A stretch of DNA of 36,954 bases. Source: Streptomyces albidochromogenes (GTDB lineage: Bacteria > Actinomycetota > Actinomycetes > Streptomycetales > Streptomycetaceae). Each line of letters opens with the position of its first letter. Within the stretch, counting starts at the first letter, position 1. The stretch is from contig NZ_VBVX01000026.1 in NCBI RefSeq assembly GCF_005981925.1, forward strand, positions 1 to 36,954, read 5' to 3'. The notes beneath the pieces were generated by a model. That model had not been told where the DNA came from. It worked only from the letters and a program-made list of their open reading frames with translations, and made no database searches. This document shows positions 292 to 26,950 of the stretch, one piece after another. Made by a program: the position numbers and the translations under genes.

Positions 292-3200
292 GTGACTCGG
301 ACGACTCGTGCGCTCATGGCCGGTTATGCCGTCCTCGTCGCCGGTTCGACCGCCGTGTGCCTGACGCTGCCCCAAGTGCACGCGGCGCTCTGGGCAGTTA
401 TCGGCCTTTCGGGTGTCGCGGCCGTCCTCACCGGCGTCGTCGTCAACCGGCCGGCGCACCGCTGGCCCTGGTGGCTCCTCGCGGCGGCGCTGCTGACGTT
501 CTGCGCCGGAGACACGTACTACCACGTGCTCGAAGAGTACTTCCAGGCGTCCAACCCGTTCCCGTCGCCCGCCGACGCCTGCTACCTGGCGACGTATCCG
601 CTGTTCGCCGCCGGTCTTCTGGGGCTGGTCAGGTACCGCTGGGTGGGACGCGACCTGCCGAGTCTGCTGGACGCGCTGATCTTCACCGCCGGACTCGCCC
701 TGCCGGTCTGGGTGTTCCTGGTGCAGCCGCTGACCCTGGTCGAGGGCCTCACCTGGGAGCAGCGCGCCATCAGCATCGCCTATCCGCTCGGCGACGTGCT
801 GGTGCTCGCGCTGCTGGTGCGACTGCTCACGCCCGGCGCCCTGTCGGGCCGCAACCGTTCCGTTCAGCTGCTCGTCCTCGGCACCGTCACGCTGCTGGGC
901 TTCGACATCGCGTACGGAATCCTCCAGCTCAACGGGTTGTGGCAAGCCGGCACCCTGCTCGACATGGGCTGGGTGATCTTCTACACGGCCTGGGGGATGG
1001 CGGCGCTGCATCCGTCGATGGTGGAGCTGACCGCGCGCACCCACCAGCCGCAGTCCCTGCTTCCGCCACCGCTGCGGCTCCTGCTGCTGTCCGCCGCCGT
1101 GCTGATCGCGCCCGGGATCCTGCTCTACGAAGGACTGCGGGGCAGCCCCCAGGACGCGGCGGTGATCGCCGCCTTCTCCGGCACGCTGATGGTGCTGGTG
1201 ATCTTCCGCCTCACCGGCATGGTGGTGGCCCACCGCAAGGCCGTGACCCGCGAGATAGTCCTGCGCACGGCAGCCGCCTCGCTGGTGTCGGCGGGCACGC
1301 CGAGGGAGGTGGCCCGGTCCTGCGACGCGGCGGTCGCCGCACTGTCCGGGCCCGATGTCCGGCTGGCGAGCATACTGCTGTCGGCCGGTTCGGGCGACGA
1401 CGCGCGCGCCCGCTCCGGCCCCCAGGCGCCGGTGTCCCGCGAGTGGCGTGACGCCAGTACGGGCGAGACGATGCCGGGCCCTCCGGTCACCCTCGCCCTG
1501 CGCCACACGGAGCTGGTGCCGGTGGCCGGACTCGGCCCGCGCATCGCCGCCCGGCTGGGGGACGCGGCCACCGCCCTCGTCTGCCCGATGATCCCGCCCG
1601 ACCGGCCGGCCGGGGACGAACTGCCGGGCATCCTGCTGGCCGCCGGCCCGCGCAAGCAACTCTCCGAGACGCGCGGCTCGTTGGAGATCCTCGCCTCGCA
1701 CGCGGGGCTCGCCATGGAACGCGTCGCGCTGCGCCAGGAGATCACCCGGCGGGAGAGCGAGGCGTACTTCCGCACGCTGGTGCGCAACGCCGCCGACGTC
1801 ATCCTCATCGTCGGCGAGGACAGCACCGTCCGCTACGCGAGCCCCTCGGCGCAGGCCGTGTTCGGGGACGTGCACCTGGTCGGCGCGTCGCTGCCCGACC
1901 TGGTGGACGCCCGCGACCGTGAGCGGGCGGCCCGGGTCCTGACGGCCATGTGGAAGGGCGATCGCCGGGAGTCGCAGGACCACTGGTGCGTACCGCGGGA
2001 GAGCGGCCCGATAGAAGTGCAGGTCAGGTGCCGCGACCTGCGGCACGACCGGACCGTACGCGGACTGGTCGTCACGCTGCGGGACGTGACCGAGCAGCGG
2101 CAGCTGGAGCACGAGCTCACCCAGCGGGCCTTCCACGACTCGCTGACCGGCCTGCCCAACCGGACGCTGCTGCTGGAGCGGATCGAGCGCGCGCTGCTGC
2201 GCGGCCGCCGCGAGTCGTCCCTCACCTGTGTGCTGTTCATCGACCTCGACGACTTCAAGATCGTCAACGACACGATGGGGCACACCGTCGGCGACCAGCT
2301 CCTCGCGGCGGTCGGCGGCAGGCTCTCGGAGTCGCTGCGCCGCACCGACACGGCGGCGCGGCTCGGTGGTGACGAGTTCGCGGTCCTCATGGAGGACGCC
2401 AAGGAGCCCATCGACGCCGAGCTGCTGGCCGCGCAGGTCGTCCAGACCCTCAACCGGCCGTTCCGGCTGGCCGACGGATCGGTGAGCGTATCCGCCAGCG
2501 TGGGCGTGGCCACGGCGATGGACAGCGCCGACAGCGAGGAACTGCTGAGCCACGCGGACCTGGCGCTGTACGCCGCCAAGGCCGCGGGCAAGCGCCAGTG
2601 GCGCCGCTTCCAGCCCCGGCTGGGGGTGCGCATGCTGGAGCGGCACGACCTGCAGGCCAGTCTCGGCACGGCGATCGCCAACGAGGAGTTCGCGGTGCGC
2701 TACCAGCCCGTCGTGGACATCACCGCGGACGAGGTCGTCGGCTTCGAGGCGCTGGCCCGCTGGCCGCACGCGCAGCGCGGGCTCGTCCCGCCGCAGCAGT
2801 TCATCTCGCTCGCCGAGGAGACCGGGTACATCGCGCCGCTGGGGGCGTGGGTGCTGGGGAACGCGACGGCCGACATCGCCGGGCTCCAGCAGGCCGTGCC
2901 GCGCACCCCGCCGTACGTCAGCGTCAACGTGTCGGCCCGTCAGTTCCGGGAGAGCGAGTTCCTGGACGAGGTGTGCAAGGTGCTCGCGACCCCCGGGCTG
3001 TCGCCCGGTTCGCTGCAGCTGGAGCTGACCGAGACGGTGCTCATGCGCAGGGACGCGCAGGTCGAGGCCGTCATGCACGCCCTGAAGGACCTCGACGTAC
3101 GCATCGCCGTCGACGACTTCGGCACGGGTTTCTCCTCGCTGCGCTATCTGCGCGAGTTCCCGATCGACGTGCTCAAGATCGACAAGTCGTTCATCGACGA

Positions 3201-4785
3201 CCTCACGACCGACACCCAGCAGGTCGCGCTCGTCGAAGGGATCGTCCACATCGCCGACACCCTCGGACTTCAGGTCATCGCCGAAGGCATCGAGGACGCG
3301 GCGCAGCGCGATCTCCTGGCCCGTATGGGCTGCCGCTTCGGGCAGGGGTACCTCTTCGCCCGGCCGATGACGGTGGAGCAGGGCGAGTTCATGCTGCGCC
3401 ACCCCAACGGGCGACACCGCGCGCCGGCGGCCGTGCAGGCGCCGGACCGGGCGGCCGCGGCCCGCCGGCCCGCACCGGGTCCCGCCCCTCCGGGTCCCGC
3501 CGCACGGGGCCCCGCCACACCGAAAAAGGAGAACGCCATGCGACAAGCGGCCGCCCCACCCCTGGGCGTACTCGACCCCCGCTGGGGCGATCTCGAGCAT
3601 CTGCGGCGGACCAGCCCGATGAGCGACGCGGTTCTCGACGAGGTACGGGGCCGGCACATCCGCAGCGGCGACCACTGGCTGATCGACTTCGCCTCCTGCA
3701 ACTACCTGGGCTTCGACTGCGATCCCGAGATCATCGACGCGATCGAACCGGCCGTACGACGCTGGGGGACGCATCCGAGCTGGTCGCGGCTGCTCGGCAG
3801 CCCGCGGTTGTATCCCGAGATCGAGGAGAGGCTGGCGGCGCTGCTGCGCGCGCCGGACACCCTGCTGCTGCCGACGGCCACGCTGATCCACGCCTCGGTG
3901 ATCCCGGTCCTCGCGAACAAGGGCCACGTGTTCGTGGAGGCGACGGCGCACCGGACCGTGTACGACGGCTGCGTGGCCGCCCGGGGCCAGGGGGCGACGC
4001 TGCACCGGTTCCGCTGCGAGCAGCCGGAACAACTGGAGGCCCTGCTGCGCGACATACCCGCCGGGCCCTCTCGGCTCGTCTGTCTCGACGGGGTCAACAG
4101 CATGACGGGGAACATTCCGGACCTGCCCGAACTCGCCGGGATCTGCCGGGACCACGACGCGACGCTCTACATCGACGACACCCACGGATTCGGCGTCATC
4201 GGCGAGCGGCGGGTGGACGAGCTGTGCCCCTACGGAGCGCGCGGCAACAGCGTCGTCCGGCACACCGGGGAGACGTACGACAACATCGTGCTCGTCGGCG
4301 GCTTCTCCAAGGCGTACTCCTCACTGCTGGCCTTCCTCGCGCTGCCGCCGGCGCTCAAGGACCTGCTGAAGGTCGCCGCGGGCCCCTACCTGTACTCGGG
4401 CCCCTCCCCCACGGCGTCCCTCGCGACGACGCTCGCCGGTCTCGAGGTCAACGACCGCCGGGGCGACGTCATCCGGGCCGGCCTGTACCGCAAGACCGTG
4501 CGGGTTCTGGAGCACCTGGGCCGCCTGGGCATCGGCACGCCGAACGTCGGAGTCCTCCCGATCGTGGAGATCCCGCTGGCGAACGCCTCGGATCTCGACG
4601 CGGTCGCCACCTTCCTGTGGGAGGAGGGCGTGTACGTGACCCTGGCCGCCTATCCGCTCGTACCGCGCGACCGGGTCGGGTTCCGCATCCAGCTCACGGC
4701 GCTGAACTCCGACGAGGACATCGACCGGCTCAACACCACGCTGACCCGGCTGTCCGAACGGTTCGCCCTGGGTGCGGGGAGCTGA
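292..4785 (+). CDS. Membrane GAF-PAS-GGDEF-EAL cyclic di-GMP protein, in frame with an oxoamine synthase
   Basis: I chose GTG 292 because AGGAGG (276-281) lies 10 nt upstream and the peptide then runs straight into a membrane segment; ATG 241 has its purine tract directly abutting. About ten hydrophobic segments fill residues 10-320. A weak GAF-like region (about 333-485) and a PAS domain (about 491-600) follow. The GGDEF domain has an intact GGDEF at 692-696 and a plausible inhibitory RxxD five residues before it. The EAL domain has EAL at 819-821 plus the downstream ELTE, DDFGTG, K-I-D and AEGIE motifs. Both synthesis and hydrolysis of cyclic di-GMP therefore look possible. After the EAL domain comes a Pro/Ala-rich linker of about 50 residues and no stop. 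The frame continues into the PLP enzyme at 3538, giving a possible 1497-residue fusion. The GGDEF-EAL part alone would end near residue 1082. Whether the fusion is made is unknown; a lost stop codon or a base error could also explain it. Confidence 0.85.
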   Translation: MTRTTRALMAGYAVLVAGSTAVCLTLPQVHAALWAVIGLSGVAAVLTGVVVNRPAHRWPWWLLAAALLTFCAGDTYYHVLEEYFQASNPFPSPADACYLATYPLFAAGLLGLVRYRWVGRDLPSLLDALIFTAGLALPVWVFLVQPLTLVEGLTWEQRAISIAYPLGDVLVLALLVRLLTPGALSGRNRSVQLLVLGTVTLLGFDIAYGILQLNGLWQAGTLLDMGWVIFYTAWGMAALHPSMVELTARTHQPQSLLPPPLRLLLLSAAVLIAPGILLYEGLRGSPQDAAVIAAFSGTLMVLVIFRLTGMVVAHRKAVTREIVLRTAAASLVSAGTPREVARSCDAAVAALSGPDVRLASILLSAGSGDDARARSGPQAPVSREWRDASTGETMPGPPVTLALRHTELVPVAGLGPRIAARLGDAATALVCPMIPPDRPAGDELPGILLAAGPRKQLSETRGSLEILASHAGLAMERVALRQEITRRESEAYFRTLVRNAADVILIVGEDSTVRYASPSAQAVFGDVHLVGASLPDLVDARDRERAARVLTAMWKGDRRESQDHWCVPRESGPIEVQVRCRDLRHDRTVRGLVVTLRDVTEQRQLEHELTQRAFHDSLTGLPNRTLLLERIERALLRGRRESSLTCVLFIDLDDFKIVNDTMGHTVGDQLLAAVGGRLSESLRRTDTAARLGGDEFAVLMEDAKEPIDAELLAAQVVQTLNRPFRLADGSVSVSASVGVATAMDSADSEELLSHADLALYAAKAAGKRQWRRFQPRLGVRMLERHDLQASLGTAIANEEFAVRYQPVVDITADEVVGFEALARWPHAQRGLVPPQQFISLAEETGYIAPLGAWVLGNATADIAGLQQAVPRTPPYVSVNVSARQFRESEFLDEVCKVLATPGLSPGSLQLELTETVLMRRDAQVEAVMHALKDLDVRIAVDDFGTGFSSLRYLREFPIDVLKIDKSFIDDLTTDTQQVALVEGIVHIADTLGLQVIAEGIEDAAQRDLLARMGCRFGQGYLFARPMTVEQGEFMLRHPNGRHRAPAAVQAPDRAAAARRPAPGPAPPGPAARGPATPKKENAMRQAAAPPLGVLDPRWGDLEHLRRTSPMSDAVLDEVRGRHIRSGDHWLIDFASCNYLGFDCDPEIIDAIEPAVRRWGTHPSWSRLLGSPRLYPEIEERLAALLRAPDTLLLPTATLIHASVIPVLANKGHVFVEATAHRTVYDGCVAARGQGATLHRFRCEQPEQLEALLRDIPAGPSRLVCLDGVNSMTGNIPDLPELAGICRDHDATLYIDDTHGFGVIGERRVDELCPYGARGNSVVRHTGETYDNIVLVGGFSKAYSSLLAFLALPPALKDLLKVAAGPYLYSGPSPTASLATTLAGLEVNDRRGDVIRAGLYRKTVRVLEHLGRLGIGTPNVGVLPIVEIPLANASDLDAVATFLWEEGVYVTLAAYPLVPRDRVGFRIQLTALNSDEDIDRLNTTLTRLSERFALGAGS
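3538..4785 (+). CDS. Alpha-oxoamine-synthase-family PLP enzyme (CqsA/BioF/KBL-like)
   Basis: ATG 3538 lies 7 nt after a strong AAGGAG, so a separate 415-residue product is likely even though the upstream frame reads through. The fold-type-I landmarks of oxoamine synthases are present: N-Y-L-G near the N-terminus, W-S-R-L-L-G-S, a PLP-stacking His in AHRTVYDG, DDTHGFG with the Asp and His at about 214-216, and the Schiff-base Lys258 in GGFSKAYSS. Family members condense an acyl thioester with an amino acid (BioF, KBL, serine palmitoyltransferase) or make alpha-hydroxyketone signals (CqsA, LqsA). It is clearly distinct from the true BioF encoded at 23207-24364. The substrate is not readable from the sequence. 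Its position between a cyclic di-GMP enzyme and a methyltransferase suggests a signal or small lipid-like metabolite rather than biotin, but that is inference. Confidence 0.85.
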   Translation: MRQAAAPPLGVLDPRWGDLEHLRRTSPMSDAVLDEVRGRHIRSGDHWLIDFASCNYLGFDCDPEIIDAIEPAVRRWGTHPSWSRLLGSPRLYPEIEERLAALLRAPDTLLLPTATLIHASVIPVLANKGHVFVEATAHRTVYDGCVAARGQGATLHRFRCEQPEQLEALLRDIPAGPSRLVCLDGVNSMTGNIPDLPELAGICRDHDATLYIDDTHGFGVIGERRVDELCPYGARGNSVVRHTGETYDNIVLVGGFSKAYSSLLAFLALPPALKDLLKVAAGPYLYSGPSPTASLATTLAGLEVNDRRGDVIRAGLYRKTVRVLEHLGRLGIGTPNVGVLPIVEIPLANASDLDAVATFLWEEGVYVTLAAYPLVPRDRVGFRIQLTALNSDEDIDRLNTTLTRLSERFALGAGS

Positions 4786-4792
4786 GAGCGCC

Positions 4793-5530
4793 GTGTCCGG
4801 ACGCCCCCCGACGCGCAACGACGACGTGGACTGGGACAGCTGGCCCGTCCAGGACTACCTCGCCGAGAACTACCGTGAGCTGCACCCCTCGGACGCGGCC
4901 GTGATCACCCACCACTCGGAGTTCTACCGGCGCTTCGCGCCCAGGAGCGCCGCCCGGACCGTCGAGTTCGGGGCCGGCCCCAACCTGTATCCGCTGATGC
5001 TGGCCGCTGCCGCGAGCCGTCGTGTCGACGCGGTGGAGGCGGGGGCGTCGGGCGTCGCGTACCTGACGCAGCAGCTCGACCAGGGCCCCGACGACAGCTG
5101 GCGGCCCTTCTACGACCTGTGCCGGCGGCTGAACCCCACCCTGCCCGCGACCCTGCGCGAGGCCCTCTCGCCGGTGCGCGTCGTCCACGCGGACGTCCGG
5201 GACCTGACGCCCGGCGCCTACGAGATCGCGTCGATGAACTTCGTCGCGGAGGGGGTCACGGAGGACTGCGCCGAGTTCCGGGACTTCTGCGCCGCCTTCG
5301 TACGTTCGGTCCGCCCCGGGGGGCAGTTGGTGGCGGCGTTCATGGAGAACATGCCGACGTACCGCATCGGACCCGCGTCGCAGTGGCCCGGCTGTCCGGT
5401 GAACCCGGCCGTCGTCAGGGACGTCTTCGAGCCGCTGACCCGGCGGCTCGCGGTGAGCCGGATCGACGCCGATCCCACGCTGCCCGACTACGGGGACTCG
5501 GGGATGGTGCTCCTGACGGCGGTCAGGTGA
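4793..5530 (+). CDS. SAM-dependent methyltransferase, NNMT/PNMT-like
   Basis: The start is GTG 4793, 7 nt after the stop of the PLP enzyme, with GGGGAG (4777-4782) 10 nt upstream; a GTG at 4772 would overlap the preceding gene. The 245-residue protein has a class I SAM motif (VEFGAGPN) near residue 55. It also has a motif-IV-like region A-S-M-N-F-V-A-E and the RPGGQLVAAFMENMPTYRIG stretch, which recalls the NNMT/PNMT/TEMT family of small-molecule N-methyltransferases. The spacing makes cotranscription with the upstream GGDEF-EAL/PLP frame very likely, so its substrate may be the PLP enzyme's product. The 3' end overlaps the convergent GH15 gene by 43 nt. Confidence 0.75.
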   Translation: MSGRPPTRNDDVDWDSWPVQDYLAENYRELHPSDAAVITHHSEFYRRFAPRSAARTVEFGAGPNLYPLMLAAAASRRVDAVEAGASGVAYLTQQLDQGPDDSWRPFYDLCRRLNPTLPATLREALSPVRVVHADVRDLTPGAYEIASMNFVAEGVTEDCAEFRDFCAAFVRSVRPGGQLVAAFMENMPTYRIGPASQWPGCPVNPAVVRDVFEPLTRRLAVSRIDADPTLPDYGDSGMVLLTAVR

Positions 5531-7350
5531 CGTGAGACCCCGGCCCGCTGGAGGGCGAACGCCGTGTCCACCAGGGCGATGTGGCTGAACGCCTGCGGGG
5601 CGTTGCCCAGCTGGCGGCGGCCGAGCGGGTCCCACTGCTCCGAGAGCAGCCCCACGTCGTTGCGGATGCCGAGGACCCGTTCGAAGGTCTCCCGTGCCTC
5701 GCGGAGGTGGCCGGTGGCTGCCAGGGCTTCGGCGTACCAGAGCGAGCACGCCACGAACGCGCCCTCGGAGCCGTGCATGCCGTCCACGTTGTGCACACCG
5801 TCCGGGCCGCGCGTCGCGCCGACGTCGGCCTGCGCGTAGCGGCGTACGAACCCTTCCTGGTCCAGCGCCCGCATCGCCCGTACGGTGCCGCGCACCCGCG
5901 CGTCCCCGGCCGGGAGGAAGCCGAGCTTGGGCATGAGCAGGGCGGACGCGTCGAGGGCGGAGGAGCCGTAGTACTGGACGAACGACTGCTGCCGGGCGTC
6001 CCAGCCCTCGCGGCAGACCTCGCGGTGGACGGCGTCCCGCATGGCGCGCCACTCGGCACAGGACCCGTTCCTGCCGAGGAGGGTTCCCATTCGCAGGGCG
6101 CGGTCGGCGGCGACCCAGGACATGACCTTGGAGTGGACGAACTGGCGTCTGGGGCCCCGCACTTCCCACAGCCCTTCGTCGGGGTCGCGCCAGTGGGCGC
6201 TGAGGTAGCTCATCAGGGCGTTGACCAGACTCCACATGTGGGGCTGCAGGGGAATGCCGGCGCGCAGCGACCAGTAGAGGGTGTCCAGGACCTCGCCGTA
6301 GACGTCCAGCTGGAACTGGCCCACGGCGGCGTTCCCGAACCGGACCGGCCGCGCCCCCTCGTAGCCGGGGAGCCAGGGCGCCTCGGTCTCCGGGAGGTGC
6401 CGGTGGCCTTCGATGCCGTACACCGTCTGGAGGTCGGCGGGTTCGCCCGCGATGGCGCGCAGGAGCCAGTCGAGCCAGGCCGTGGCCTCGTCCCGGTAGC
6501 CGCTGCGCAGCAGGCACGACAGGGTGAGGGTGGAGTCGCGCAGCCAGCAGTACCGGTAGTCCCAGTTGCGTTCGCCGCCCACGCATTCGGGGAGCGAGGT
6601 GGTGGGCGCGGCGACGATGCCGCCGGTGGGGGCGTACGTGAGCGCCTTCAGGGTGATCAGCGACCGTACGACGGCCTCCCGCCAGGGTCCTTGATAGCGG
6701 CACTGGCCCGCCCAGTCGCGCCAGAAGTCGGTGGTCGCCTTGAGTGCCGTCTCGGGCGGTACGCAGACGGGGGCCGGCTGGGCCGTGAGGTGCGACGGCG
6801 TCCACATGAGCATCAGGGTCAGCCGGCGGCCGGCGGGGACGTCGAACGTGACGACGGTCGAGTCGGTATGGTCGAGCGTCCGCACCGGCCCGTCGGCGCT
6901 CAGCCACACCGCGTCCGGTCCGGCGACCGCGACGGCGACCGTGGAGGGGTCGGTGAACCGGACCCAGGGGCGGACCCTGCCCTGGTGGAAACGCGGCTTG
7001 AGCTCACTGCGCAGCGCGACGGTGCCGGAGAGGCCCTCGACGGTGCGCACGACGCAGGGGTGCCGGCCGCGCGGCGGCATGAAGTCCGTGACGCGGGCGG
7101 TGCCGGTCGCGGTATTCCAGTACGTGTCGAGCACGAGCGTGTCCCGGCGGTACGCCCGGTGCGAGGAGAGTCCGCCGCCGACGGGTGCGACGCGCCAGAA
7201 CCCGTTGTCCGCCGTGCCGAGCAGTGCGGCGAAACAGGCGGGGGAATCGAAGCGCGGGAAACAGAGCCAGTCGATCGACCCGTCCCTGCCCACCATGGCG
7301 GCAGTTTCGAGGTCGCTGACAAGGGCGTAGTCCTCGATTGGATTGCTCAT
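5488..7350 (-). CDS. Glycoside hydrolase family 15 protein (glucoamylase/trehalase-like)
   Basis: The 620-residue product is full length for the bacterial GH15 family of glucoamylase-like and actinobacterial trehalase enzymes. The N-terminus has the typical I-E-D-Y-A-L-V-S-D..T-A-A-M-V-G-R-D-G-S-I-D-W-L-C-F-P-R-F opening. The (alpha/alpha)6 barrel carries NWDYRYCWLRDS, a catalytic-acid region GLWEVRG followed by HSKVMSWVAADRA, and the second acidic region LLSEQWDP followed by GNAPQAFSH. No signal peptide is visible, so it should be cytoplasmic, acting on an alpha-linked glucan or trehalose. No strong ribosome binding site precedes ATG 7350. The last 43 nt overlap the convergent methyltransferase gene with no terminator hairpin between them. 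Confidence 0.9.
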   Translation of the reverse strand: MSNPIEDYALVSDLETAAMVGRDGSIDWLCFPRFDSPACFAALLGTADNGFWRVAPVGGGLSSHRAYRRDTLVLDTYWNTATGTARVTDFMPPRGRHPCVVRTVEGLSGTVALRSELKPRFHQGRVRPWVRFTDPSTVAVAVAGPDAVWLSADGPVRTLDHTDSTVVTFDVPAGRRLTLMLMWTPSHLTAQPAPVCVPPETALKATTDFWRDWAGQCRYQGPWREAVVRSLITLKALTYAPTGGIVAAPTTSLPECVGGERNWDYRYCWLRDSTLTLSCLLRSGYRDEATAWLDWLLRAIAGEPADLQTVYGIEGHRHLPETEAPWLPGYEGARPVRFGNAAVGQFQLDVYGEVLDTLYWSLRAGIPLQPHMWSLVNALMSYLSAHWRDPDEGLWEVRGPRRQFVHSKVMSWVAADRALRMGTLLGRNGSCAEWRAMRDAVHREVCREGWDARQQSFVQYYGSSALDASALLMPKLGFLPAGDARVRGTVRAMRALDQEGFVRRYAQADVGATRGPDGVHNVDGMHGSEGAFVACSLWYAEALAATGHLREARETFERVLGIRNDVGLLSEQWDPLGRRQLGNAPQAFSHIALVDTAFALQRAGVSRHLTAVRSTIPESP

Positions 7351-14048: not shown

Positions 14049-14816
14049 TCACCCGAATGTCCGAAGTGCCCGGTCCAGTACCCGGCGCAGCCTCAGCGCG
14101 TCGGCCGCCACCGCCGTGACCAGCACGGCGGGCCCGGCGAGCGGGGTGAGCACCGCGTTGTCACCCAGAAGGGCCGCTTCCGGCGGACTGCGCTCGAATT
14201 CCGGACGTACGACGAGGAGTTGGCCGACCGCCCTGTTCCCGCCCAGCACCGCCGCGCCGTCCCAGCCGCCGGGGGCCCCGGGACCGTATGCCAGCTCCTG
14301 GTCGAGCAGCGGGCGGCCGGCCCGGTGGACGGTGAGGCGGGTGGTCAGCGTGCCGGTCTCCTCGCCGTACCGGCCGAGGATCTGCTCCTCGCGCAGGACC
14401 AGGCGGGCGCGGGCGGCGAGCTCCACGCGGGTGGTCATGCGCAGGTCGCTGCCGCGCGCCGAGATGAGCGCTTCCGGCAGCCAGCGCAGGCACGCGCCGG
14501 CTCCGGCCGTCAGCCGTACGTCGTAGCGGGCCGGCCGGCCGCCCCGGCCGGGCAGGGCGACCGTGGCCGCCGCCGAGTCCACGGTGAGCGCCGCACCGTC
14601 CCGCACCCCGGCCTCGATGGCCAGCCGGTCCCCGCCCAGCGGCGCGCTCATCGCCCCGACGACGGTGACACGGGCGTACGCGCCCGCGCCGCGCGTGCGG
14701 CGCAGGGCGAGCGGGCCGTCGCTCTCCAGCACGGGCAGCCGGGTGCCGCCGAGGCCGTCGGGCACGGCGGTGATCCTGGCCGTCGCCGCGACGCCCTCCG
14801 GCGCGAGGGCGGTCAC
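14049..14816 (-). CDS. ureD: Urease accessory protein UreD
   Basis: This is the last gene of the urease operon. GTG 14816 overlaps the ureG stop by 4 nt (GTGA), which sets the start. The 255-residue product has the UreD pattern: an N-terminal beta-rich region, then [12 protein letters not shown] and [15 protein letters not shown], typical of the family. UreD (UreH) is the scaffold that binds apo-urease together with UreF and UreG so that nickel can be delivered. Longer in-frame starts run back through ureG and are not credible. No clear terminator follows. Confidence 0.9.
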
Positions 14817-15490
14817 GCGGACCAGGCGGCGAGCTGACCGCGGACCCAGTCGGCCACCGGCTTCACGCCCTCGCCCGACGTCAGCGACGTGAAGGCGACG
14901 GGCAGTTCGCCGCGCTGGGTCCGGGCGTCGTGCGCCATGCGGCCGAGGTCGGAGCCGACGTACGGCGCGAGGTCGGTCTTGTTCACGACCAGCAGGTCGG
15001 CCGTCGTGACGCCCGGTCCGCCCTTGCGCGGGATGTCGTCCCCGCCGGCCACGTCGATGACGAAGACCTGCGCGTCGACGAGCCCTTTGGAGAAGGTGGC
15101 GGTCAGGTTGTCGCCGCCCGACTCCACCAGGATCAGGTCGAGCGGCCCCACCGCGTCCTCCAGGTCCTCGACCGCTTCGAGGTTGGCGGAGATGTCGTCC
15201 CGGATGGCGGTGTGCGGACAGGCGCCGGTCTCGACGGCCTGGATGCGCTCGGGCGGCAGAACGGCGTTGCGCAGGAGGAACTCCGCGTCCTCGCGCGTGT
15301 AGATGTCGTTGGTGACGACGGCGATGGAGTACGTGTCGCGCAGCGCGCGGCACAGGGCCGCGACGGTCGCGGTCTTGCCCGAGCCGACCGGGCCGCCGAG
15401 CCCGATGCGCAGGGCGCGCCTGGTGCCGTCGGACCGGGCGGCGTCGGCGCTGACCACCGTGGTCGTGTCGTGGCTGTGGTCGAGGTGCAT
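14813..15490 (-). CDS. ureG: Urease accessory GTPase UreG
   Basis: The 225-residue SIMIBI GTPase has the P-loop GPVGSGKT at 33-40, the nickel-binding Cys91-Pro92-His93, E-S-G-G-D-N-L (switch region) and the guanine-specificity motif N-K-T-D. It couples GTP hydrolysis to nickel insertion into urease. A short His-containing N-terminus (H-L-D-H-S-H-D) could add metal binding, partly standing in for the absent UreE. ATG 15490 has AGGAG 8 nt upstream. It overlaps ureD by 4 nt and is 22 nt from ureF. Confidence 0.96.
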
Positions 15491-15512
15491 GGTGTGCGGC
15501 TCCTAGGCGGTG

Positions 15513-16223
15513 TTACGAGGCGAAGAGGCGTACGGGCCATGCCGCGTGCGCCTGTGCCGTGATGTCGAGCAGCGGCGCGGAGGCCGCGGGCAGCGCGCCG
15601 GGGCCTTCGGCCGGGGCCCGGCGGCCGGCCTCGGCCGCGCGCCGCGCGACCTGGTCGAGTTCGGGGGCGAGGCGGGCGAGAACGGCGGTGGCCTCGAAGG
15701 GGTCGAGTCCCAGGAGGCGTACGACGGCGGTGGCGGGACCGCCGACGCTCTCGTACGCGACGCAGTGTGCGGCGTCCTCGGGTCCGAGGCCCGCGGCGTG
15801 CGCGGTGACGCCGAGCACGACGGGCTGGTGCGCGCCACGCGGACGCGCTGCGGCGAGCGCGTCGAGCGCGTCGCACGGCCAGGCGGCGCGGGCGGCCCGC
15901 ATGAGCTGGCGGCCGAGCTTGCGCGCCGTCGTCCGCAGGGCGGGTGACGGCGTGCGGGCGTCGGCGGCCTCGTCGAGGACGAGCGGGTCCGCGCCGACGG
16001 CCGCTGCGGCGGCCAGCGCCGCCGAGGTGAGCCCGGTCGTGTGCAGACGGCCCCGGCAGAAGGTCGCCAGGTCGGTGGCGTCGCGGATGCGTCCCGCCTT
16101 GACGGCGGCCTCGGCGCCGCCGGAGTGGGCGTGGCCCCCGGCCGGGAACCGGCCGTCGGCGAGGACGAGGAGGGCGGCCCGCGCCGCTCCCGGGGACGCG
16201 CCGTGCGGTGAGGTGGTGTCCAT
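15513..16223 (-). CDS. ureF: Urease accessory protein UreF
   Basis: The 236-residue all-helical protein begins at ATG 16223, just 2 nt after the ureC stop, with no obvious ribosome binding site, so translation is probably coupled. It shows the UreF signatures L-A-D-G-R-F-P-A-G-G-H-A-H-S-G-G-A-E near the N-terminus and A-H-C-V-A-Y-E-S later. UreF bridges UreD and UreG in the activation complex and modulates the GTPase. Extended starts inside ureC are out-of-frame readings of that gene. Confidence 0.92.
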   Translation of the reverse strand: MDTTSPHGASPGAARAALLVLADGRFPAGGHAHSGGAEAAVKAGRIRDATDLATFCRGRLHTTGLTSAALAAAAAVGADPLVLDEAADARTPSPALRTTARKLGRQLMRAARAAWPCDALDALAAARPRGAHQPVVLGVTAHAAGLGPEDAAHCVAYESVGGPATAVVRLLGLDPFEATAVLARLAPELDQVARRAAEAGRRAPAEGPGALPAASAPLLDITAQAHAAWPVRLFAS

Positions 16224-16225
16224 GG

Positions 16226-17947
16226 TCAGAAGAGGAAGTACCGCTGGGCCATGGGCAGTTCCGGGGCCGGCGCGGGCTCCACCGGATCGCCGTCGATCGT
16301 CACCGTGAAGGTGTCGGGGTCGACCTCGACCCGCGGCAGGGCGTCGTTCTCGCGCATGTCGGCCTTGGTGACGCGCCGCGTGTTCGTGATGGGGACGAAC
16401 CGCTTGCCGAGGCCGAGGCGTTCGGGCAGTCCGTCGTCGACCGCCGCCGGGGCGACGAAGTTGAACGAGTTGGCGGCCGGAGCCCTGCCGAGCGCGCCGA
16501 ACATCGGCCGGGGCAGCACCGGCTGCGGGGTGGGGATGGAGGCGTTGGCGTCGCCCATCTGCGCGTACGCGATCTGGCCGCCCTTGATGACGAGCTGCGG
16601 TTTGACGCCGAAGAAGGCCGGGTCCCACAGCACGAGGTCGGCGAGTTTCCCGCTCTCGACCGAACCGATCTCGTGGTCGAGGCCCTGCGCGACGGCCGGG
16701 TTGATCGTGTACTTGGCGACATAGCGACGTGCGCGGTGGTTGTCGGCGCGTCCGTCGCCCGGCAGGGCGCCCCGGCGCTTCTTCATGACGTGCGCGGTCT
16801 GCCAGGTGCGCAGCGCGACCTCGCCGACGCGGCCCATCGCCTGCGAGTCGGAGGAGATGATCGAGATGGCGCCGAGGTCGTGCAGGATGTCCTCGGCCGC
16901 GATGGTGGAGGGCCGGATCCGCGACTCGGCGAAGGCGAGGTCCTCCGGGACGGCCGGATTGAGGTGGTGGCACACCATCAGCATGTCGAGGTGTTCCTCG
17001 ATGGTGTTGACGGTGTGCGGCCGGGTCGGGTTGGTCGAGCTGGGCAGGACGTACGGCTCGGAGACGACCGTGATGATGTCCGGCGCGTGCCCGCCGCCCG
17101 CCCCCTCGGTGTGGTACGCGTGGATGGTGCGCCCGGCGATCGCGGCCAGGGTGTCGCCGACGAACCCGGCCTCGTTGAGCGTGTCGGTGTGGATGGCGAG
17201 CTGCGCGCCGGTCTCCTCGCACACGCCGAGGCAGGCGTCGATGACGGCGGGAGTGGCCCCCCAGTCCTCGTGGATCTTGAATCCCAGCGCGCCGCCGCGC
17301 AGTTGGGCGTGCATCGCGTCGCGGGACATGGTGTTGCCCTTGCCGAGCAGACCGATGTTGACCGGGTAGTGCTCCAGCGCCTCGAACATCCGGGCCAGAT
17401 GCCAGCCGCCGGGCGTGACGGTGGTCGCCTTGGTGCCCTCGGCGGGGCCGGTGCCGCCGCCGACGAGCGTGGTGATCCCCGAGGAGAGCGCCTGTTCGAC
17501 GACGGTCGGTGAGATGAAGTGGACGTGCGCGTCGATGGTACCGGCGGTGAGGATCTTCCCGTTGCCCGCGATGACCTCGGTCTCGGGGCCGATGACCAGG
17601 TCGGGGTGCACGCCGTCCATGGTGTCGGGGTTGCCGGCCTTTCCGATGCCGGTGACGCGCCCGTCCCGCAGGCCGACGTCGGCCTTGACGACGCCCCAGT
17701 GGTCGAGGATCACGGCGCCGGTGATGACGGTGTCGGGCGCCCCCTCGGCCCGGGTGGTGCGGGCCTGGCCCATGGACTCGCGGATGACCTTCCCGCCGCC
17801 GAACACCGCCTCGTCACCGGCGCGTCCGGGACCGCCGCAGCGGTCCTCCTCGATCTCGATGAGCAGGTCGGTGTCGGCGAGGCGGATGCGATCGCCGGTG
17901 GTGGGGCCGAACAGGTCGGCGTACACCGGGCGCTGGAGTTCAGGCAT
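16226..17947 (-). CDS. ureC: Urease alpha subunit
   Basis: ATG 17947 is preferred over GTG 17956 because GGAGG lies 8 nt before it and abuts the GTG. It overlaps ureB by 8 nt. At 573 residues it is full length. All nickel-site and catalytic residues are present: His141 and His143, carbamylated Lys224, His253, His279, flap Cys326-His327, and Asp367. These correspond to Klebsiella 134/136/217/246/272/319/320/360 with a constant offset of 7. The enzyme hydrolyses urea to ammonia and carbamate in the cytoplasm, supplying nitrogen and buffering pH. Nothing suggests inactivation. Confidence 0.98.
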
Positions 17948-18251
17948 CGAGGGCACCTCCGGTCTCTCCGCGCAGACCGGCGACGACGCGCCTGCCCGCG
18001 ACGGGGACGAGTTCGACGTCGACGGGGATGCCGGGCTCGAAGCGCACGGCGGTGCCCGCGGCGATGTTCAGCCGCAGGCCGCGGGCGGCGGCGCGGTCGA
18101 AGTCGAGGCCCGGGTTGGCCTCGGCGAAGTGGTAGTGGGAGCCGACCTGGACGGGCCGGTCGGCCGCGTTCAGGACGGTGAGGCGGGTGACGGGCAGTCC
18201 GTCGTTGAGCGCGACGGGGTCGTCGCCGTACAGGATTTCACCCGGGATCAT
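17940..18251 (-). CDS. ureB: Urease beta subunit
   Basis: This 103-residue protein has the UreB opening M-I-P-G-E and the core [13 protein letters not shown], followed by [17 protein letters not shown]. It is a separate polypeptide, as usual for bacterial three-subunit ureases, and forms part of the (UreABC)3 enzyme. It is 15 nt from ureA and overlaps ureC by 8 nt. Confidence 0.97.
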
Positions 18252-23206: not shown

Positions 23207-24364
23207 TCAGAAGGCGGCGGGCGGAGCGGTCCGTACGACCGTGGCCACCGCCTCGTCGACCTGCGCGTCCGTCAGGTCCGCGCGGGCGGTGAGCCGGAGC
23301 CGGGAGACGCCGTCCGGCACCGACGGCGGGCGGAAGCAGCCCACGACGAGGCCGGCCTCCCGGCAGTCGGCGGCCCAGCGCACCGCCTCCGCCGGCGAGG
23401 GCGCCAGGACCGACACCACGGCGGCGTCGGGGCGTACGGCGGTCAGCCCCGCGTCCGTCAGCCCCCGGTGCAGCGAGGCGGCGACCGTACGGGCCCGCGC
23501 CGCCAGTTCCGGCTCGCGGCGCAGCAGCCGGGCGCTCGCCAGCGCGGCGCCCGCGGCGGCCGGCGCCAGACCGGTGTCGAAGATGAACGTACGGGCCGTG
23601 TTGACCAGGTGGTCGACGACCCGGGCGGGGCCGAGCACCGCTCCGCCCTGACTGCCCAGCGACTTCGACAGGGTGAGGGTGGCGACGACGCCCTCCGCTC
23701 CCGCGAGTCCCGCCGCGTTCAGCGCCCCCCTGCCTCCCTCGCCGAGTACGCCGAGGCCGTGGGCGTCGTCGACCAGGAGCGCCGCCCCGTACGCACGGCA
23801 GGCGGCGGCGAGTTCCGGCAGGGGCGCCGCGTCGCCGTCCACCGAGAAGACCGAGTCGGTGACCGCGAGGGCGCGGCCGTCGTGCGCGTCGAGGGCCTTG
23901 CGCACGGCGTCGGGGTCCGCGTGCGGCACCACGGCGGTGGTGGCGCGGGAGAGCCGGCAGCCGTCGACGATCGAGGCGTGGTTGAGGGCGTCGGAGACGA
24001 TCACCGAGCCGTGGCCGCTGAGGGCGGTGAGGGCGGCGAGGTTGGCGGCGTAACCGGAGGAGAGGACGAGCGCGGCCTCGAAACCGCAGAAATCGGCCAA
24101 TTCCCGCTCAAGGTCGGCGTGCAGGCGTGTGCTGCCCGTGACGAGCCTGGACCCGGTCGCACCGGCGCCCCAGCGGCGGGCGGCCTCCGCGGCCGCGGCG
24201 GTGACCTCCGGGCGGTGCGTGAGGCCGAGGTAGTCGTTGCTCGCGAGGTCGAGCCGGGCGGACTCGGCGGGGCGCGGGCGCAGGGTCCTGACGAGCCCGG
24301 CCTTCGCGCGCACCGCCGCCTGCTCGTCGATCCAGTCGAACGGGTCGGACGATCCCTGGGGCAT
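23207..24364 (-). CDS. bioF: 8-amino-7-oxononanoate synthase
   Basis: This 385-residue PLP enzyme has the standard BioF motifs: N-D-Y-L-G-L, a glycine-rich G-A-G-A-T-G-S-R-L-V-T-G, the PLP-stacking D-A-L-N-H-A-S, V-D-D-A-H-G-L-G, and Schiff-base Lys in T-L-S-K-S-L-G. It condenses pimeloyl thioester with L-alanine, the first dedicated step of the biotin ring. AAGGGA precedes ATG 24364 by about 8 nt. It is divergent from bioB-bioA-bioD with a 143-nt spacer and is tail-to-tail with the DUF397 gene (12 nt apart). Confidence 0.93.
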   Translation of the reverse strand: MPQGSSDPFDWIDEQAAVRAKAGLVRTLRPRPAESARLDLASNDYLGLTHRPEVTAAAAEAARRWGAGATGSRLVTGSTRLHADLERELADFCGFEAALVLSSGYAANLAALTALSGHGSVIVSDALNHASIVDGCRLSRATTAVVPHADPDAVRKALDAHDGRALAVTDSVFSVDGDAAPLPELAAACRAYGAALLVDDAHGLGVLGEGGRGALNAAGLAGAEGVVATLTLSKSLGSQGGAVLGPARVVDHLVNTARTFIFDTGLAPAAAGAALASARLLRREPELAARARTVAASLHRGLTDAGLTAVRPDAAVVSVLAPSPAEAVRWAADCREAGLVVGCFRPPSVPDGVSRLRLTARADLTDAQVDEAVATVVRTAPPAAF

Positions 24365-24394
24365 GGCGGAGTCCCTTTTGTAGGCAGCCCACAG

Positions 24395-24421
24395 ACACTA
24401 GCCGGGTACGGGCGAGGTCAG
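24395..24421 (-). promoter_or_regulatory. Candidate bioF promoter
   Basis: On the minus strand CTGACC (24421-24416) and TAGTGT (24400-24395) are 15 nt apart and resemble -35/-10 elements. The downstream inverted repeat at 24422-24441 abuts the -35. Confidence 0.35.
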
Positions 24422-24441
24422 GGTGTGGCAATACCCACACC
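24422..24441. promoter_or_regulatory. Candidate biotin operator, inverted repeat
   Basis: GGTGTGG-CAATAC-CCACACC is a perfect 7-bp inverted repeat between bioF and bioB. It is well placed to control both directions. It does not match the BirA, BioQ or BioR site patterns I know. Confidence 0.4.
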
Positions 24442-24507
24442 TCGTGAGGCCGCTCTTGTGCGGTTCCTCCTTGGCCACAGGCGGTGCCGTAGGTGAGGAT
24501 CGGCATC

Positions 24508-25653
24508 ATGGACCTGCTGAACACGCTGGTGGAGAAGGGGCTGCGGCGCGAGCTGCCGACCCGCGAAGAAGCGCTCGCCGTGCTGGCGACCTCCGACGAC
24601 GAGCTGCTCGATGTGGTGGCCGCGGCCGGAAAGGTACGCCGCCAGTGGTTCGGGCGGCGGGTGAAACTCAACTACCTGGTCAACCTCAAGTCGGGCCTGT
24701 GCCCCGAGGACTGCTCGTACTGCTCGCAGCGGCTCGGCTCGAAGGCCGAGATCCTGAAGTACACCTGGCTGAAGCCCGCCGAGGCCTCCAAGGCGGCGGC
24801 CGCGGGGGTCGCGGGCGGGGCGAAGCGGGTGTGCCTGGTCGCGAGCGGGCGCGGGCCGACGGACAAGGACGTCGACCGCGTCACGAAGACGATCGAGGCG
24901 ATCAAGGACGAGAACGAGGACGTCGAGATCTGCGCCTGCCTCGGGCTGCTCTCGGACGGACAGGCCGAGCGGCTGCGGGCGGCGGGCGCCGACGCGTACA
25001 ACCACAACCTGAACACCTCCGAGGCGACGTACGGCGGCATCACCACGACGCACACCTACGCCGACCGTGTGGAGACGGTCCAGCAGGCGCAGGCGGCGGG
25101 CATGTCGGCGTGCTCGGGCCTCATCGCGGGCATGGGCGAGACGGACGCGGACCTCGTGGACGTGGTCTTCGCGCTGCGCGAGCTCGACCCCGACTCGGTG
25201 CCCGTGAACTTCCTGATCCCCTTCGAGGGGACGCCGCTCGCCAAGGAGTGGAACCTGACGCCGCAGCGGGCGCTGCGCATCCTGGCGATGGTGCGGTTCG
25301 TCTGCCCGGACGTGGAGGTACGGCTCGCGGGCGGGCGCGAGGTGCACCTGCGGACCATGCAGCCGCTGGCGCTGCACCTGGTCAACTCGATCTTCCTCGG
25401 CGACTACCTGACCAGTGAGGGCCAGGCCGGCCAGGCGGACCTGGAGATGATCGCGGACGCCGGTTTCGAGGTGGAGGGGTCGCAGACGACGACGCTTCCG
25501 GAGCACCGCGCCGGCGGCGGCTGCGCGTCGGCGTGCGGTGAGCCGGCCGCACCGGAGTCCGAGGGAGAGACCCCGGAGATTCCGGCCGCCCGTACGGACC
25601 TCGTGTCGGTACGGCGGCGAGGCGCCGGGACGGACCTCGCCCCCAATGCCTGA
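24508..25653 (+). CDS. bioB: Biotin synthase
   Basis: ATG 24508 is preferred over GTG 24493 because GTGAGGA lies 8 nt before it. The 381-residue radical-SAM enzyme has Cys65-x3-Cys69-x2-Cys72 (CPEDCSYC) for the 4Fe-4S cluster. It also has the later Y-N-H-N-L-N-T-S and R-L-A-G-G-R-E motifs around the auxiliary cluster. It inserts sulfur into dethiobiotin, the final step. The C-terminal 50 residues beyond the catalytic barrel are low-complexity and contain C-A-S-A-C. The stop overlaps bioA. Confidence 0.96.
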
Positions 25654-26950
25654 GCCGTTGGCCCCCGGTGAGCTGCTGCGGCTCGACCGGGAGCACGTCT
25701 GGCATCCGTACGGTCCGATGCCGGGCCGTGCACAGCCGCTGCTGGTGGAGTCCGCTTCCGGCGTCCGGCTGCGCCTGGCCCAGCCGGCCCACGGCCAGGA
25801 CGAGTTGATCGACGGCATGTCGTCCTGGTGGTCGGCGGTGCACGGCTACAACCACCCCGTCCTCAACGAGGCGGCGCGCGGTCAGCTCGACCGGATGAGC
25901 CATGTGATGTTCGGCGGGCTCACCCACGAGCCCGCCGTGCGGCTGGCCGCGAAGCTGGTGGAGATCACCCCCGAGCCGCTGCGGCACGTGTTCCTGTCCG
26001 ACTCCGGTTCGGTGTCGGTCGAGGTCGCGGTGAAGATGTGCCTCCAGTACTGGCGCTCGGTGGGCCGGCCGGGCAAGCAGCGGCTCCTGACCTGGCGCGG
26101 CGGCTACCACGGCGACACCTGGCAGCCGATGGCGGTGTGCGACCCGCAGGGCGGCATGCACGAGCTGTGGCAGGGGGTCCTGCCGCGCCAGGTCTTCGCG
26201 GACGCGCCGCCGGCCGCGTACGACGCGGCGTACGCCGATCACCTGCGCGCGACGATCGCCCGCCACGCGGACGAGCTGGCCGCGGTGATCGTGGAGCCGG
26301 TGGTGCAGGGCGCCGGCGGGATGCGCTTCCACTCGCCCGCGTACCTGCGGGTGCTGCGGGAGGCGTGCGACGAGCACGGGGTCCTGCTGATCTTCGACGA
26401 GATCGCGACCGGCTTCGGCCGTACGGGGACGCTCTTCGCCTCGGAGCAGGCGTCGGTCTCGCCGGACGTCCTGTGCCTGGGCAAGGCGATGACCGGCGGT
26501 TACCTGTCGATGGCGGCGACCCTGTGCACGTCCGAGGTGGCCGACGGCATCTCGCGCGGCGAGCTGCCGGTCCTGGCCCACGGCCCGACCTTCATGGGCA
26601 ATCCGCTGGCTTCGGCGGTGGCCTGCGCCTCGATCGAGCTGCTGCTCGGCCAGGACTGGCAGGGCGAGGTCAAGCGCATCGAAGCCGGGCTGAACGAAGG
26701 CCTGGCGGCGGTGGCGGAGCTTCCGGGGGTCCGCGACGTCCGGGTGCTGGGGGCGATCGGCGTCGTACAGCTCGCCCGTCCTCTCGACGAGGCCGCCATG
26801 GCGGCGGCCACGGCGGCGACGGTCCGGGAGGGCGTGTGGCTGCGGCCGTTCCGCGACCTGATCTACACGATGCCGCCGTACGTCACGAACGACGCGGACC
26901 TGTCCCGGATCTGCCGGGCGATGGGGGCGGCCGCGTCGGCCGGTGCGTGA
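25646..26950 (+). CDS. bioA: Adenosylmethionine-8-amino-7-oxononanoate aminotransferase
   Basis: ATG 25646 overlaps the bioB stop in ATGCCTGA, which fixes the start and implies translational coupling; no strong ribosome binding site is visible. The 434-residue class III aminotransferase has the BioA-type [36 protein letters not shown], and PLP Lys in L-G-K-A-M-T-G-G. It transfers an amino group from SAM to make 7,8-diaminopelargonate. Confidence 0.95.

Follow-up and report, generated by a model that had tools for sequence, protein, structure and literature searches.

An open reading frame of Streptomyces albidochromogenes encodes a membrane-bound c-di-GMP enzyme joined, with no intervening stop codon, to an alpha-oxoamine synthase (AOS), and comparison of related gene sequences indicates that this in-frame fusion is genuine and common in Streptomyces. 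The frame lies on contig NZ_VBVX01000026.1, which was analyzed over its full 36,954 nucleotides (hereafter the window) and is an entire contig from an assembly of 795. On balance, we favor the view that the protein combines the synthase of a small aminoketone-type signal with its presumed receptor and a c-di-GMP output, and that it works like a joined CqsA/CqsS. The preliminary description of this DNA had proposed the fusion and knew of no precedent; among the literature matches listed, we likewise found no description of a c-di-GMP enzyme fused to an oxoamine synthase.

Domain organization of the fusion protein

The frame is free of stops from ATG 241 to the stop codon at 4783-4785, and translation from GTG 292 yields a product of 1497 residues; TTG 286 and ATG 241 are alternative starts. 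Some ten predicted membrane helices are followed by PAS, GGDEF and EAL domains, a linker and the PLP-dependent AOS, all encoded on the forward strand. Pfam matches PAS, GGDEF, EAL and Aminotran_1_2 families in the protein, and all but PAS_9 score above cut-off. Three parts of the GAF-PAS-GGDEF-EAL layout given in the preliminary description are recovered in this way: PAS at about residues 491-605 (positions 1762-2106), GGDEF at residues 613-768 (2128-2595) and EAL at residues 790-1025 (2659-3366). The GAF domain is not, as no GAF family matches the window protein even at E ≤ 1. Residues 331-490 (1282-1761) are GAF-like by position only, GAF_3 being matched here in a relative (L071).

The linker between EAL and AOS (residues 1031-1098, positions 3382-3585) had been called Pro/Ala-rich, and it is indeed rich in Pro, Ala and also Arg. 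It is mostly predicted to be disordered, with block pLDDT values of 26-39 over most of its length. The AOS core occupies residues 1099-1497 (3586-4785 with the stop codon), with Aminotran_1_2 matched at residues 1131-1480. The AlphaFold model of the EAL-linker-AOS segment shows this disordered linker but renders the AOS poorly (mean pLDDT 69.3, pTM 0.46).

The N-terminal membrane module (residues 1-330, positions 292-1281) matches no Pfam family at E ≤ 1 in a search of positions 292-1800. Sensor genes that adjoin AOS genes in other Actinobacteria have homologous N-termini. Its AlphaFold2 model has a mean pLDDT of 72, with 156 of the 330 residues at 50-70, and a Foldseek search with this model returned no matches at E ≤ 0.001. 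VIA-align superimposes the module on generic 7TM receptors with Z up to 11.0 (rmsd 4.4, 195 aligned), a range that is usual for helical bundles.

Catalytic residues and family of the synthase

On sequence grounds, the C-terminal part of the fusion is an alpha-oxoamine synthase of PLP fold type I, with an Aminotran_1_2 score of 90.8 bits against a cut-off of 19.7. Alignment places what we take to be its functional residues at Lys1340 (the PLP lysine), Asp1296, His1298 and His1220. Of 45 aligned sequences, 42 retain the PLP lysine and 44 the histidine of the DxH motif. Among the exceptions, L021 has Gln for the lysine although its methyltransferase gene (see below) is present, and L052, where that gene is absent, has Tyr for the DxH histidine. 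The GGDEF motif and the RxxD I-site are invariant in all 45 sequences. The same holds for the EAL phosphodiesterase residues checked, which presumably represent the catalytic set, save that D942 is Ala in one sequence. All GGDEF, EAL and AOS residues checked are intact in the window. The protein thereby bears the sequence hallmarks of a c-di-GMP turnover enzyme, namely the GGDEF motif and the EAL catalytic residues.

The AOS scores nearest to BioF, serine palmitoyltransferase and glycine C-acetyltransferase, with CqsA less near. It shares superfamily and catalytic residues with the former three enzymes but misses their equivalog cut-offs by far. Membership in the CqsA/LqsA family was rejected (NF005526, 67.7 bits against a cut-off of 428), as was identity with BioF (TIGR00858, 166.9 bits against 426.45). 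A better BioF candidate is the BioF-like synthase at 23207-24364 (reverse strand), which at 393.8 bits lies just below the same 426.45 cut-off. Candidates for BioB (24493-25653) and BioA (25538-26950), both on the forward strand, lie beside it in the same window. Because these separate genes are available at 23207-26950, the fused AOS would be unnecessary for biotin, and a role in biotin synthesis is unlikely.

Fused and separate loci in Streptomycetaceae

Two partly overlapping sets of genomes were compared. For the first, one genome per species was scanned with the AOS half, and 48 loci were confirmed among the 80 candidate stretches listed, which makes this set a sample. The second comprises 295 genomes of the genus, 51 of which contain an AOS (E ≤ 1e-100); one of these is the window's own, and the other 50 were analyzed. 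The resulting 99 loci (the window, 48 and 50), less 12 whose AOS duplicates one already included and two from Frankia, leave 85 distinct Streptomycetaceae-type loci, window included. Sixty-nine are fused in frame, 14 are separate and two are undecidable (L048 stops at a contig edge and L055 has an internal deletion), which gives a fused share of 69/83 among decidable loci. Two of the 14 separate loci are degenerate, with two stops within the AOS match (L165) or a partial AOS (L166). The two genes overlap by TGATG or ATGA in four of the six separate named loci and are divided by a short gap in the other two. No matches were found in plasmid records at E ≤ 1e-60.

The preliminary description had pointed to the CGA codon at 3412-3414 as a possible lost stop or base error. 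The codon is present, and the nearest relative (L009, AOS 86% identical) is also fused, in an independent assembly, which argues against both origins. The same description reasoned that a stop between the domains in most close relatives would count against the fusion. The genus presents the opposite picture, with 69 of 83 decidable loci fused, and it is only within the window's own clade that half of the loci (9 of 18) are separate.

A tree of 84 AOS rows contains at least seven changes between the fused and separate states, although it is a quick tree with many weak forks. In a clade of 34 rows (SH-aLRT 83), 33 are fused without the old AOS start and one is cut by a contig end. The old start is likewise missing from 17 deep fused rows that form three clades (support 89-92). 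The window's 18-row clade (support 97) contains nine separate loci, six fused without the old start and three fused with it.

Linker and internal start site

A ribosome-binding site, AAAAAGGAG, is located at 3523-3531 ahead of an internal ATG at 3538 (3523-3540 together, forward strand), as had been noticed before. The predicted SD duplex amounts to -9.3 kcal/mol, and the site is where the separate AOS genes of relatives begin. Each of the 12 separate loci that are intact offers a start codon 15-21 codons ahead of the AOS core and an SD of -7 kcal/mol or lower, and the same start position and SD strength are found in 10 of the 69 fused loci, including the window. Another fused locus, L050, has an ATG at -17 with an SD of -6.0 kcal/mol. 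Any start codon at the old position is present in 18 of the 69 fused loci and none is left in the other 51. Within the interval from EAL to the AOS core, 20 of the 69 have no ATG, GTG or TTG at all, so that AOS can be produced there only as a fusion.

The frame beginning at ATG 3538 alone encodes 415 residues, and the two products envisaged earlier, a 1497-residue fusion and a free 415-residue AOS, are both confirmed as frames. A second product, free AOS, is likely in the window strain because the old start and a strong ribosome site are kept and its own clade is half separate.

Selection on the linker was evaluated in eight relatives from one clade with equal linkers of 34 codons. Pooled pairs give a dN/dS of 0.27 in the fusion frame, compared with 0.145 for the flanking EAL end and 0.027 for the AOS start. 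Variable columns number 11, 9 and 22 of 34 at codon positions 1, 2 and 3, respectively. In the clade tested, the linker thus looks as though it evolves like coding sequence. Together with loss of the old start, this linker evolution (one clade) leads us to reject chance read-through in high-GC DNA for the genus, but in the window's own clade it may still apply.

A membrane module accompanies the synthase across Actinobacteria

To judge from co-occurrence, what travels with AOS across the phylum is primarily the membrane module and less the c-di-GMP domains, a relationship that the preliminary description missed. In a phylum sample of 396 genomes, 25 contain an AOS at E ≤ 1e-80, and all 25 also contain the ten-helix module (E ≤ 1e-10); these are related genomes and do not amount to 25 independent observations. 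AOS homologues in other Actinobacteria are 39-65% identical. Module and AOS are fused in two of the 25 (both Streptomyces) and lie on the same contig in the other 23, with 110-4413 bp between the matches. As a control, a BioF query identified 16 other AOS-family genes in 13 of the 25 genomes, none within 5 kb of a module match; many contigs are short, and the sole shared contig is that of the window's own BioF, 22 kb from the module. At E ≤ 1e-20 the module is found in 53 of the 396 genomes, 24 of them among the 25 with AOS. In the genus sample of 295 genomes, AOS is found in 51 and the module (E ≤ 1e-40) in 55, which include all 51.

In Frankia, a GGDEF-EAL gene lies about 1 kb from the AOS, on the other strand and past a Leu/Phe-transferase-like gene. 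Its N-terminus matches the module weakly in pairwise hhalign (E values of 4e-7 and 7e-9). An MFS_3 exporter homologue is present in 10 of the 23 unfused loci of the phylum sample, and in only two of the 48 named loci (L033 and L035).

Outputs and phylogeny of the module

The module is attached to different outputs. Of the 23 unfused loci, 17 have a module-GGDEF gene, with EAL in addition where the contig is long enough, and three of these 17 also have a module-histidine kinase. A module-kinase or hybrid kinase is the only output in five (L070, L072, L075, L076 and L102), which brings the loci with a module-kinase to eight of 23; one locus, L100, is without an output assignment. The AOS itself is fused to an AMP ligase and an acyl carrier domain in L072 (6309-9806, forward strand) and L073 (8730-12182, reverse strand). 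Each of these fusions adjoins a ten-helix module, with a hybrid kinase output in one case and GGDEF-EAL in the other.

In a quick tree of 63 modules, the AOS-linked members fall into clades of 21 (support 96), 10 (support 96) and 4 (support 100). The tree represents Streptomycetaceae by seven loci (the window and six named ones) and omits L102, for which hits are short. The clade of 10 contains nine AOS-linked modules and an AOS-less paralogue (L002); the clade of four contains two linked modules, one whose AOS is a fragment at the edge of a contig and one unlinked (L084). The remaining 28 modules, which have no AOS nearby, fall outside these clades. Kinase and GGDEF-EAL outputs are intermixed within the AOS-linked clades, and modules group mostly by AOS linkage, not by output domain.

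Membership of the module family extends beyond the AOS partners, because modules without an adjacent AOS exist. Twenty-nine module genomes lack AOS (G300, G467 and G490 are outside the loci analyzed), and no AOS match at E ≤ 1e-8 was found near 29 modules in 28 loci, within flanks of up to about 8 kb and less at contig ends. Further modules are present elsewhere in some AOS genomes. The window's own genome has the paralogue L002 (1501-4665), which is 50% identical over residues 9-1064. The match is without AOS and includes two TGA stops; it may be a copy that kept only the receptor, or one in decay.

Downstream methyltransferase

The next gene (4793-5530, forward strand) encodes a putative SAM-dependent methyltransferase that is NNMT/PNMT-like and SCO2525-like, with both scores below the family cut-offs. 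It is kept downstream of AOS in most relatives and absent in four distinct loci (L010, L015, L052 and L121). The AOS lysine or histidine is lost in all four loci without the methyltransferase versus one of 78 with it (L021), in a count that excludes L055, L165 and L166 and includes L151 on a 39% match and L027 on a match truncated where the contig stops. Fisher's test gives 2.9e-6 with kinship ignored; on the tree, the association comprises just two events (sign test p 0.5) and is therefore only suggestive. They give a slight indication that AOS and methyltransferase act in a common pathway, and that a dead AOS domain may have been retained in some lineages.

Relation to known systems and proposed function

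An oxoamine-type synthase beside a membrane sensor is common to CqsA/CqsS of Vibrio, LqsA/LqsS of Legionella and JqsA/JqsS of Janthinobacterium. According to PMC3566124, the synthase gene adjoins its cognate sensor kinase gene in all carriers known to its authors, and PMC3285556 assigns ligand sensing by CqsS to the transmembrane domain. The same placement of synthase and membrane sensor is found here, fused in the window and either fused or within 4.5 kb in 25 of 25 phylum genomes. There are clear differences: the AOS sequence is remote from CqsA, the module has about ten helices and no Pfam name, the output in the window is GGDEF-EAL instead of a CqsS-type histidine kinase, and synthase and sensor form one chain. 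Since the AOS sequence is outside the CqsA family, our claim is that the protein works like CqsA/CqsS, not that it is such a system.

We propose that the AOS catalyzes condensation of an amino acid and an acyl-CoA to an alpha-aminoketone, which would be modified by the methyltransferase from the next gene. The modified product would be released and then bound by the ten-helix module, although the module might instead read the state of the pathway. Ligand binding would shift the GGDEF/EAL balance and so change c-di-GMP. The internal start kept in the window strain probably also yields free AOS. In every case the synthase is partnered by a related membrane module, regardless of the output attached, as would be expected if the module reads the AOS product. 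The side-by-side genes of distant relatives point to a chemical signal that one part would make and the other sense. We put forward more tentatively, and with real reservations, a wider actinobacterial family in which AOS makes a diffusible ligand for the ten-helix receptor. Streptomyces would have merged synthase, receptor and second-messenger enzyme, and some lineages would have lost synthase catalysis and the methyltransferase together and now be receivers only.

According to PMC6205966, c-di-GMP controls development in Streptomyces, including the timing of sporulation in these antibiotic producers. That paper is a pan-genome survey of c-di-GMP proteins that groups orthologues at 45% identity, and it calls the signals sensed by the PAS/GAF-bearing members unknown as of 2018. 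One protein described there, CdgF (vnz02140), is 10TM-PAS-PAC-GGDEF-EAL with both catalytic motifs conserved (PMC6205966), an architecture like that of residues 1-1030 of the window protein, the two being compared by architecture only. In the main text of PMC6205966, the terms transferase, synthase and fused give no matches. The fusion offers a candidate signal for such sensors, namely the compound made by a synthase that is part of the same chain. Oxoamine-based signaling across Actinobacteria, through a receptor family without a Pfam name, is suggested as well.

Alternative explanations

The AOS may instead make a lipid or secondary metabolite that is no signal, with the module sensing a cue from outside or from the membrane and the fusion serving only to hold the synthase at the membrane or to place it under c-di-GMP control. 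We regard this as rather unlikely, yet it has several observations on its side: the families closest to the AOS by score are BioF, serine palmitoyltransferase and glycine C-acetyltransferase and not CqsA, an AMP ligase and an acyl carrier domain are built into a second AOS branch that adjoins the module (L072 and L073), and modules exist without an adjacent AOS. It fits less well with module kinship, which mostly tracks AOS linkage over output domain. Moreover, the output is swapped while the AOS stays, a pattern that an AOS product acting as ligand would predict better than control of the output alone.

The remaining explanations concern the origin of the joined frame. In the window strain, the fusion could be a near-neutral stop loss between overlapping genes, with free AOS from ATG 3538 as the working enzyme. 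The old start is retained there with its SD of -9.3 kcal/mol, the 18-row clade is divided into nine separate and nine fused loci, and the TGATG or ATGA overlaps of several separate relatives could be joined by a small indel. This origin nevertheless seems improbable to us, given that the 34-row clade and the 17 deep rows are fused without the old start, that coding selection seems to act on the linker in one such clade and that the nearest row, L009, is likewise fused. To a read-through created by base or assembly error we give hardly any credence. The division of the window assembly into 795 contigs speaks for it, but the same fusion occurs in assemblies from many other species, the nearest relative included, and for the genus such an error is already refuted by this comparison.

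Other genes in the window

A GH15 trehalase-like gene (5488-7350, reverse strand) converges on the methyltransferase gene, and the two overlap slightly. In three of the loci without the methyltransferase (L010, L015 and L052), the homologue of the trehalase-like gene ends 20-78 bp past the AOS match. Urease genes at 14049-17956 (reverse strand) encode UreD, a UreG-type GTPase and the urease alpha subunit.
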